Assembly (NCBI RefSeq): GCF_009749385.1
Contig: NZ_WBIN01000003.1
Span: forward strand, 1-64,000
Direction of reading: 5' to 3'
Length of the DNA stretch: 64,000 nucleotides
From: Agromyces allii
Lineage (GTDB): Bacteria; Actinomycetota; Actinomycetes; Actinomycetales; Microbacteriaceae
Shown here: positions 36,885 through 41,788 of the stretch, piece by piece
Layout: each line of letters opens with the position of its first letter
Numbering within the stretch: the first letter of the stretch is position 1
Notes under the pieces: generated by a model
Told to the model about the DNA's origin: nothing
What the model saw: the letters and a program-made list of their open reading frames with translations, nothing else
Databases searched by the model: none
Program-made: the position numbers and the translations under genes

Positions 36885-38099
36885 GTGGACGCGCAGGAGC
36901 AGGAGGAGCGCCTCGTCGCCGCGGAGCTCGACCGGTACGACCGCGAACTGCGGCGGTACCGCAAACTGCGAAGCGGCCTCGAGGCCGACGTCGCGCGACG
37001 GCTCGAGGCCGCCGGGTTCAAGTACTTCCACGTCACCGCGCGCGTGAAGTCGCGCGAGTCCTTCGAGCGCAAGGTGCGCCGGGCACCCGACCGCGAGGTG
37101 CGCGACATCCTCGGCGTGCGGGTGGTCGCCAACTTCGAGGGCGACCTGCCCGGCATGGAGCAGGTCGTGCGCGAGGCGCTCATCGTCGACGACGACTCCT
37201 GGGTCGACAAGTCGGCGCTGCTCCCGCTCGACGCGTTCGGGTACCGCTCGGTGCAGTTCGTCGGACGGGTGCCGGGCGACCGCGTCGGCAGCGGCAGCGG
37301 CAGCGGCAGCGCCAGCAGCAGCGGCGAGGCGGCGAGCGGCGACGACCGCGCCGCCGGCTCGGAGGTCGAGGTCGAGGTCCAGCTGCGAACGGCGCTGTCC
37401 GACACGTGGTCGGAGCTCGAGCACGACTTCCGCTACAAGTCCGCGCGACGCCTGCCCCGCGAGGTCGACCGACTGTTCGCCATCTCGGCGGCACTGCTCG
37501 AGCAGGCCGACGACAACCTCGACCTCATCCGCCGACTGGTCGAGGAGGCGCGCACCGCGACGCCGGTGGTCGGCGACCGCGGCGGCGAGCGCGGGTACAT
37601 CGGGCGGTTCATCCAGTACGACGGCGACTCCCGTTCGCTCGACCAGGTCGTCACGGCCGCGCTCGACGTGCCGTTCGGCACCGTGACCGGATCGGGGCGC
37701 GAGCTCCGCAGCGTCGTGCGCGCCGCCGGATGGCTGCACTACGACGCCCTCGCCGACGGCTTCGCCGAGTTCTCGGAGCACGGTCGCCGCCTCGCGATCG
37801 CGTGCGCCTCCACCACCAACGACATCCTGCTGACCGACGCGGAGCCGCAGCGGCCCGCCCGTTCGTTCCGCGGCATCGGGCTCTACTGGTCCGCACTGGC
37901 CGCGGCCCTCCTCGGCGGCGGGTCGCTCCGCGAGAGCCGAGTGCCCGGCGGGCGGCTCGCCGAGTACCGCACGGTGGCGACCTGGCTCGACGCGCATCCC
38001 GAGGCGTCCGCGCTCGGCGTGCGGAGCCGGTACCAGTCGCTGGCGGCTCCGTCCGGCACGCTCGACGACGCGGGCTACGGCCCGATCGCCCTCGACTGA
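36885..38099 (+). CDS. (p)ppGpp synthetase-like protein with novel C-terminal domain
   Basis: A 404-residue protein whose first half is a RelA/SpoT synthetase domain: TARVKSRESFERKVRR (K55, R58), DILGVRVV (74-81), GYRSVQ (119-124, usual H replaced by Q), EVQLRT (164-169), ELEHDFRYK (177-185). A Gly/Ser insert of about 24 residues from a GGCAGC repeat interrupts it at 135-158. No hydrolase, TGS or ACT domain is present. The C-terminal 215 residues are of unknown nature and make it about twice the size of usual small alarmone synthetases. It is divergent from dnaK with HAIR sites between. GTG 36885 is the start. Toxic alarmone synthetase or normal SAS cannot be distinguished. Confidence 0.8.
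   Translation: MDAQEQEERLVAAELDRYDRELRRYRKLRSGLEADVARRLEAAGFKYFHVTARVKSRESFERKVRRAPDREVRDILGVRVVANFEGDLPGMEQVVREALIVDDDSWVDKSALLPLDAFGYRSVQFVGRVPGDRVGSGSGSGSASSSGEAASGDDRAAGSEVEVEVQLRTALSDTWSELEHDFRYKSARRLPREVDRLFAISAALLEQADDNLDLIRRLVEEARTATPVVGDRGGERGYIGRFIQYDGDSRSLDQVVTAALDVPFGTVTGSGRELRSVVRAAGWLHYDALADGFAEFSEHGRRLAIACASTTNDILLTDAEPQRPARSFRGIGLYWSALAAALLGGGSLRESRVPGGRLAEYRTVATWLDAHPEASALGVRSRYQSLAAPSGTLDDAGYGPIALD
37285..37324 (+). repeat. GGCAGC microsatellite inside the alarmone-synthetase gene
   Basis: Four copies of GGCAGC followed by degenerate GCCAGC/AGCGGC units encode the Gly-Ser insert at residues 135-147. Hexamer changes would keep the frame and alter linker length. Confidence 0.85.
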
Positions 38100-40687: not shown

Positions 40688-40798
40688 CCGCGCCCTCCTC
40701 CGATAGAGCCACCCCGGTGGACAGCCGCGCGCGGGGCGCGTATCGTGTCGCGAGCCGCACCACGCGGCATCCGCCTCACGGAGTGAAAGGAGCGAGTC

Positions 40799-40861
40799 AT
40801 GACCGACGCCTTCGTCGCGCGTTTCGCAGACCCCCTTTCCTGCGAGGCCTCCAGCCTGTAG
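40799..40861 (+). CDS. 20-residue leader peptide ORF upstream of the RIO-like kinase
   Basis: A short ORF, MTDAFVARFADPLSCEASSL, has an excellent ribosome site (AAAGGAG, 6 nt spacing) and lies 48 bp before the RIO-like kinase gene. Codons for EA (40844-40849, GAGGCC) can pair with GGCCTC at 40883-40888. A competing bulged hairpin is possible at 40868-40886. This suggests translation-sensitive regulation of the kinase, though no T-run terminator is present. Purely sequence-based. Confidence 0.5.
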   Translation: MTDAFVARFADPLSCEASSL

Positions 40862-40909
40862 CCGTTCGGCCGGGCACCCGGTGGCCTCCATCTCATTCGG
40901 AGAACCACC

Positions 40910-41788
40910 GTGACCTTCCTCTCGTCTCTCGACGACACCGCTTCGACGACTTCCGCCGAGGCATCCGCCCTCTCCTCGCTCGCGTTCCAGACCACGGAAC
41001 CCGGCGAGGGCCAACGCTGGTCGACCTGGCCGGCGACCACTCCCAGCGAGCGCGGCCCCATGCCCCGCCCCGACTGGCTCGTCACCTCCGCCGCGGCGAT
41101 CGACACCGAACTCGGCGTCGTGAAGACCGGCAAGGAGGGCGACGTGTTCCTCATCGAGCGCGCGATCCCGGATGCCCCGCCCGAGGTCGCGGGCAACCGC
41201 GTCGTGCTCGCCGCCAAGCGCTACCGCTCGAACGAGCACTCCGACTTCCACCGCTCGACCATCTACACCGAAGGACGTGGGCTGCGCCGCACGCGCGACG
41301 TCCGCGCCGTCGCCAAGGGCACGTCGTTCGGCCGCTCGGTCGCGCGCGTGCAGTGGGCGAGCGCCGAGTTCGAGGCCCTGTGCCGGCTCGCCGAGCTCGG
41401 CGCGGCCGTGCCGTACCCGGTGCAGGTGGCCGGCACCGAAGTGCTCATGGAGTTCATCGGCGACGGACGGGTCGCCGCCCCGCGGCTCGCGCAGGTTCGG
41501 GCGACCCCCGACGAACTCCGGGACCTGTTCCACCAGGTCGTCGAGTTCATGCACGTGCTCGCCGCCAACGGCCTCGCGCACGGCGACCTCTCGCCGTACA
41601 ACCTGCTCGTGCACCACGGGCGCGTCGTCGCGATCGACCTGCCTCAGATCGTCGACCTCGTGTCGAACCCGCAGGGGCTCGACCTGCTGCACCGCGACTG
41701 CGTCAACGTGTGCGACTGGTTCACGAGGCAGCGGCTCGAGTGCGACGCCGAGGCGCTGTTCGGCGAACTCGTCGCCGTGATCTGGTGA
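40910..41788 (+). CDS. RIO-like protein kinase
   Basis: A 292-residue atypical kinase. VVLAAKRYRS contains the ATP-binding lysine (K103). HGDLSPYNLLV is the catalytic loop with the conserved Asp (D226) and metal-ligand Asn. IDLPQIVD is the RIO form of the metal-binding motif (D243). The typical 18-to-27-residue insertion with a flexible loop appears near RSNEHSDFHRSTIYTEG, as in RIO1. Eukaryotic and archaeal RIO kinases act in small-subunit maturation; bacterial members are uncharacterised. The GTG start has GGAG 7 nt upstream. A leader ORF precedes it. Confidence 0.88.
   Translation: MTFLSSLDDTASTTSAEASALSSLAFQTTEPGEGQRWSTWPATTPSERGPMPRPDWLVTSAAAIDTELGVVKTGKEGDVFLIERAIPDAPPEVAGNRVVLAAKRYRSNEHSDFHRSTIYTEGRGLRRTRDVRAVAKGTSFGRSVARVQWASAEFEALCRLAELGAAVPYPVQVAGTEVLMEFIGDGRVAAPRLAQVRATPDELRDLFHQVVEFMHVLAANGLAHGDLSPYNLLVHHGRVVAIDLPQIVDLVSNPQGLDLLHRDCVNVCDWFTRQRLECDAEALFGELVAVIW

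Follow-up and report, generated by a model that had tools for sequence, protein, structure and literature searches.

A short leader frame precedes the RIO-type kinase gene of this Agromyces allii stretch and, by comparative analysis, its RNA contains two mutually exclusive helices, one of which is predicted to hide the kinase ribosome site. We consider it probable, at roughly 70%, that the leader is a translational attenuator acting in cis and driven by the ribosome translating the leader frame, and the evidence favors translational over transcriptional attenuation. Comparison of related sequences establishes the frame, the position of its stop codon and three pairings, and from these we infer that the frame is translated, in which direction control runs, and that lowered or paused translation is the signal. 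The comparative data argue strongly for the RNA switch and moderately for the direction of control.

Within the 64,000-nucleotide stretch of DNA that was analyzed (the window), the leader frame (MTDAFVARFADPLSCEASSL, 20 codons) occupies positions 40799..40861 of the forward strand, on which all features described here are read; it begins with the ATG at 40799, its stop codon ends at 40861, and its ribosome site, AAAGGAG, lies at 40786-40792. The kinase GTG at 40910 starts 48 bp past the stop, all of which agrees with the leader described in the initial annotation. Upstream are a predicted promoter, TGGACA-N17-TATCGT (40718..40746), and a small hairpin, GCCGC-ACCAC-GCGGC (40754..40768), near the presumed mRNA 5′ end; similar small hairpins were spotted by eye in relatives. 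In 35 of 103 leaders the motif TKGAYA-N16..19-TANNNT precedes the leader frame, whereas 200 shuffles averaged 0.0 such leaders and never gave more than 2. Further away, the predicted protein at 36885-38099 may, judging by its motifs, have a RelA/SpoT-type alarmone synthetase domain. No Rfam family matches in the window above its gathering score, with two weak sub-threshold matches (M23 and epsC) near the leader, and a search of the leader DNA against its own genome gave just short chance matches elsewhere.

The gene downstream (40910..41788, GTG start) codes for a 292-aa protein matching the RIO1 domain (PF01163, E = 1.6e-34, 119.6 bits against a cut-off of 22), as expected from its earlier description as a RIO-like kinase, and its closest NCBIfam models score below cut-off. 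Relatives of the kinase in Agromyces are 73-89% identical to it. The neighboring genes are not conserved, with the upstream MFS gene present in 10 of 70 kinase loci and the TauE gene in none of the 70.

Segment 0 (GAAAGG, 40785..40790) lies within the leader frame's ribosome site and pairs with its complement, segment 1 (CCTTTC, 40834..40839), in leader codons 12-14, a pairing assessed by permutation; segment 2 (GAGGCCTCC, 40844..40852) forms the end of the leader frame; segment 3 (CGGTGG-C-CTCC, 40879..40889) lies between the two genes; and segment 4 (GGAG-AA-CCACCG, 40899..40910) takes in the kinase ribosome site and extends one base into the start codon. Segment 3 can pair with either segment 2 or segment 4. 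The 2:3 helix includes the GAGGCC at 40844-40849 and the complementary GGCCTC at 40883-40888 that the initial annotation had picked out, and this pairing recurs in 106 distinct leaders with compensatory changes. The attenuation-like geometry of mutually exclusive pairings suggested there is supported by the comparative analysis, as is its expectation that both the short frame and the GAGGCC:GGCCTC pairing are conserved upstream of orthologous kinases. Two parts of that interpretation have to be replaced. The competitor it named, a bulged hairpin at 40868-40886, was dropped because the spacer between stop and segment 3 is not conserved (it varies from -1 to 34 nt and is missing in many relatives); that hairpin is probably incidental, and the conserved competitor is the hairpin at 40879-40910. 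It had also held that neither structure hides the kinase ribosome site, which CGGTGG-C-CTCC/GGAG-AA-CCACCG does, and this helix is kept by compensatory change.

The leader closely follows the kinase through the Microbacteriaceae. A kinase search gave 70 loci, and these together with genus relatives provided 71 distinct leaders for alignment, leaving out 12 distant loci (non-family or overlap-type, described below) and two partial matches; the frame and the GAGGCC/GGCCTC pair are present throughout Agromyces and Microbacterium in this set. We built a covariance model (R1) from 21 Agromyces-type leaders and ran it on 249 Microbacteriaceae genomes, where all 22 matches with E ≤ 1.3e-4 directly precede a RIO kinase, as do 26 of the best 30 matches, the other four being unrelated. 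The kinase itself is present in 43 of the 249 genomes and the leader in 42 of those 43 (28 by R1 match, and 14 of the remaining 15 by inspection), and the element therefore appears tied to the RIO kinase gene; the one kinase-bearing genome lacking it has a truncated kinase. Among two loci with truncated RIO kinases, in which the matches begin near query residue 144-153, one (L123) keeps the full leader and the other (L184) has lost it. Running R1 on 149 order-level genomes added one more Microbacteriaceae leader and gave weak matches only elsewhere.

Most leader frames start with ATG (88 of 90, the other two with GTG), and in all 90 the stop lies between -4 and +18 relative to the start of segment 2. 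Start codon and segment 2 lie a multiple of 3 nt apart in 91 of 103 leaders, and the other 12 have a stop codon at segment 2; in these, a 1- or 2-nt frame offset removes the peptide C-terminus and leaves GAGGCC in place with the stop on it. The offset in Microbacterium leaders is a 2-nt deletion, and in eleven leaders such a deletion yields a 14-codon peptide (MNTVFVAPLADILP and similar) whose TGA stop overlaps segment 2 (TGAGGCC), with the RNA pairing kept. Frame and stop position fit selection for a ribosome that would reach segment 2 and not pass beyond segment 3.

Helix 2:3 is paired in 298 of 324 cells with 36 distinct combinations, a result that none of 5,000 permutations reaches, and shifted registers are 0.34-0.59 paired as against 0.92 in the true register; within Agromyces alone, the permutation test is weak (119 of 2,000). 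For helix 3:4, an average of 9.04 of 10 pairs form across 106 leaders, and their own total of 958 exceeds the maximum of 925 among 1,000 permutations, with stems fitted for linker length and permuted partners fitted likewise. The duplexes of helix 0:1 beat all 5,000 permutations in 89 distinct leaders (0 of 2,000 in an earlier set of 77), compared with 47 of 1,000 and 998 of 1,000 permutations for control windows further upstream. Permutations of this kind retain relatedness, and the tree test, which handles kinship by parsimony only, is our central result because segment 3 is the strand common to two exclusive helices. Both sides of a 2:3 pair change on the same branch on 15 branches of the kinase tree, and 12 of these keep the pair, where 5.1 coincidences are expected; with registers shifted by -2, -1, 1, and 2, the double changes keeping a pair number 1, 0, 0, and 0. 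For 3:4, 19 same-branch double changes keep pairing versus 0, 2, 3, and 0 in the shifted registers. One leader (L114) has both helices altered in step (GAGGCTGC:GTAGCCTC and AAGTAG:CTACTT). An untargeted mutual-information scan with average-product correction did not rank the 2:3 and 3:4 pairs first, since it is dominated by relatedness.

Segments in the leader set were assigned partly by hand. The kinase tree has 105 of the 106 leaders as tips, one having dropped out for its short kinase fragment, and includes several short fragments (56-141 residues). The 106-leader set is without two leaders from species already represented, the L184 locus with no leader, and one leader too diverged to place by rule, whose fold shows both helices; an earlier 3:4 test used 91 leaders without two in which the segment lies outside the model match, and both of these are in the 106-leader test.

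In the off state of the proposed attenuator, a ribosome moving from codon 12 to the stop would cover segments 1 and 2, and segment 3, freed in this way, would pair with segment 4 and hide the kinase ribosome site. In the on state, with the leader untranslated or a ribosome stopped at about codon 10 or earlier, segments 2 and 3 would pair, releasing segment 4 for translation of the kinase. The 0:1 hairpin would sequester the leader's own ribosome site and can coexist with the on state; translation would accordingly be expected to alternate between leader and kinase. When the ribosome footprint is masked in folding models with the P-site at codon 14 or later, helix 2:3 is abolished (mean ≤ 0.01) and helix 3:4 rises to 0.59 at codon 14 and 0.77 at codon 19. 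When the frame is empty or the ribosome sits no further than codon 10, 2:3 dominates on average (0.55-0.63), and in the empty frame it exceeds 0.5 in 57 of 90 leaders. On these results, translation through the leader should shut off the kinase, and no translation or an early pause should open it. We used helix probabilities for this purpose; masking with Shine-Dalgarno accessibility as the readout yielded low numbers, the site being covered by other local pairs, and the kinase site is predicted to open modestly (on average no more than 0.31 unpaired).

In six leaders compared, the energies of the 2:3 and 3:4 folds are nearly the same (-48.7 and -50.6 kcal/mol in the window). In the window, 3:4 stands at 0.99 with an empty frame and only a ribosome at codon 10 puts 2:3 ahead (0.63), and in its relative L082 3:4 prevails throughout; the switch in this clade may thus need a pause and not absent translation. 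Behavior in the window's clade is mixed in these models and seems closer to the erm scheme, and it is in view of this mixture and the modest opening of the kinase site that we infer, and do not assert, the direction of control.

The same RNA switch would serve an erm-like arrest-peptide sensor, in which a drug or metabolite stalls the ribosome on the nascent peptide before segment 2 and turns the kinase on, and which adds a specific inducer and a peptide that matters (TV-F/V-V-V/A, codons 3-7). Many leaders do share M-x-T-V-[FVIL]-V-[VA] at codons 3-7, which we take to resemble two stall motifs, IFVI of ErmCL and IAVV of ErmAL1. Helix 2:3 can still form with a ribosome at codons 5-10, and the best stall position in the window is codon 10. 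However, the motif is absent from several genera (MTATSVKTPHTPSPEAAV, MTASNESAMNPSFPEVAAF, MADVIAIANPPHTRVVV) and from a group outside the family, f22 (MAAHSRRRAVVCAPYGPHFAVPTA), no resistance gene lies downstream, and pN/pS is no lower in the leader reading frame (0.94) than in the other two (0.64 and 0.92). That comparison, on 59 of the 71 leaders after leaving out 12 with internal indels or another start region, does not show purifying selection on the leader peptide. The peptide is not clearly conserved, no conserved stall peptide of the drug-inducible erm type was found among the leaders, and we regard such a sensor as doubtful. Some codons are nearly invariant among the 59 Agromyces and Microbacterium leaders: codon 6 is GTC in all 59, codon 11 is GAC in 58, and codon 13 is the leucine codon CTT in 54. 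The CTT lies in segment 1, and the GTC and GAC may fold into a small hairpin within the frame.

Transcripts rich in G+C are often targeted by Rho when untranslated, and lost kinase translation could for that reason lead to termination. Such an outcome is reported for topAI in PMC12121999, and a switch that decides whether RNA polymerase enters the kinase gene, by transcription attenuation or Rho-dependent termination, has to be weighed. We think it improbable: direct reading of the sequence finds no T-run after the 3:4 hairpin, as the initial annotation had said of this region, and the GC-rich hairpin and T-run of an intrinsic terminator are not found before the gene; the hairpin instead holds the kinase ribosome site and reaches the start codon, which is where a translational attenuator acts. 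Even less probable in our judgment is re-initiation, by which the leader frame would deliver ribosomes to the kinase start and raise expression, as proposed for short leader genes near start codons in Actinobacteria in PMC4833913. Overlap-type leaders, whose frame runs past or overlaps the kinase start, would suit it, but in Microbacteriaceae the stop lies mostly 31-59 nt from the kinase start as against the 10-11 bp enriched in that study, and a conserved hairpin sits between the leader stop and the kinase start. As for a functionless coincidence of a short frame and complementary GC-rich words, the 146-nt window fold taken singly is unremarkable (z = -1.38, with 15 of 200 shuffles folding equally well) and not strongly above chance; it is conservation of the frame, 2:3, and 3:4 in 106 leaders that lifts it above chance, and coincidence is refuted by compensatory changes in three helices together with the near-universal presence of the leader in kinase-bearing genomes.

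Beyond the Microbacteriaceae, the kinase is present in 22 of 148 class-level genomes, 18 of these outside the family. All 8 kinases of the f22 genomes are preceded by a leader frame of 23-30 codons ending in CCCACCGCCTGA or a variant, and in the copies that were folded the leader end pairs with GCGGTGGGGA, which otherwise pairs with CCACCGC next to the kinase ribosome site; this design is built from sequence unrelated to the Microbacteriaceae leaders. In one f22 leader (L150), a short local hairpin persists at the kinase site even with 2:3 formed, and the fold of another leader, L149, follows the same plan as f22. In 15 overlap-type leaders (Nocardioides and others), in which the leader extends beyond the kinase start or overlaps it, the leader ribosome site pairs with a tract adjoining the kinase site (0 of 5,000 permutations). 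The logic common to these arrangements would be that translation of the leader and of the kinase exclude each other, a view that extends to the overlap type by way of one helix. In twelve overlap-type leaders from different genera, most of the peptides have TVLGLPAD or something close to it in common, and the peptide itself may be under selection in this type. In Nonomuraea gerenzanensis, a relative of the kinase sits in a stretch without annotated features.

Among known types, the leader probably belongs with translational attenuators. In erm/cat-type attenuators such as that of ermC, a short frame is accompanied by alternative pairings, and an early ribosome stop frees the ribosome site. The RIO leader resembles these in its short frame, here presumed to be translated, its alternative pairings, and the hiding of the main gene's ribosome site in one of them. 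It differs in that segment 1 pairs with the leader's ribosome site and not with segment 2 (perhaps excepting the window's clade), so that an untranslated leader should leave the kinase on, and also in its poorly conserved peptide and in its target, which is a RIO kinase gene in place of a resistance gene. In Actinobacteria, attenuators of the amino-acid leader type likewise combine a leader peptide with alternative helices; unlike them, the RIO leader has no run of codons for one amino acid, and its target is a kinase. The whiB7 leader, described as transcription attenuation of a regulator gene, is also an actinobacterial leader frame, whereas the RIO leader lacks a terminator. According to PMC12121999, the whiB7 leader responds to many translation stresses. 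The closest mechanism found in the literature searched, toiL/topAI of Escherichia coli, is described in the same paper: the leader frame senses the translation state, and normal leader translation hides the downstream ribosome site. There the leader frame itself is the pairing partner of the hidden site, which stalled ribosomes open, whereas in the RIO leader a separate segment 3 chooses between the leader and the kinase site, in another gene and lineage. In the literature searched, we found no account of any leader preceding a bacterial RIO kinase gene; neither RIO nor kinase is mentioned in the main text of PMC7157823 (WblC/WhiB7, Streptomyces) or in the portion of PMC4833913 available.

A more specific proposal, which we rate as unlikely, is that the leader is a ribosome-supply gauge, whose structured and self-hiding frame would be read solely under an abundance of initiating small subunits, the RIO kinase being made when these are short. 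RIO kinases of archaea and eukaryotes take part in maturation of the small subunit, and a gauge of this kind would therefore form a feedback loop; if it were true, the mRNA of a ribosome-related kinase would be where bacteria sense their capacity for translation. Rio and Bud32 are called universal in eukaryotes and archaea in PMC1821047, and the literature searched gave no functional role for bacterial RIO kinases.

As a translational attenuator, the leader would provide a first handle on when a bacterial RIO kinase is made, and it predicts a response to the state of translation. The leader's own ribosome site is covered by an additional helix, for which standard attenuators have no need. The predicted switch logic, in which the kinase site is hidden when the leader is translated, appears to be held while the sequence turns over almost entirely between families.
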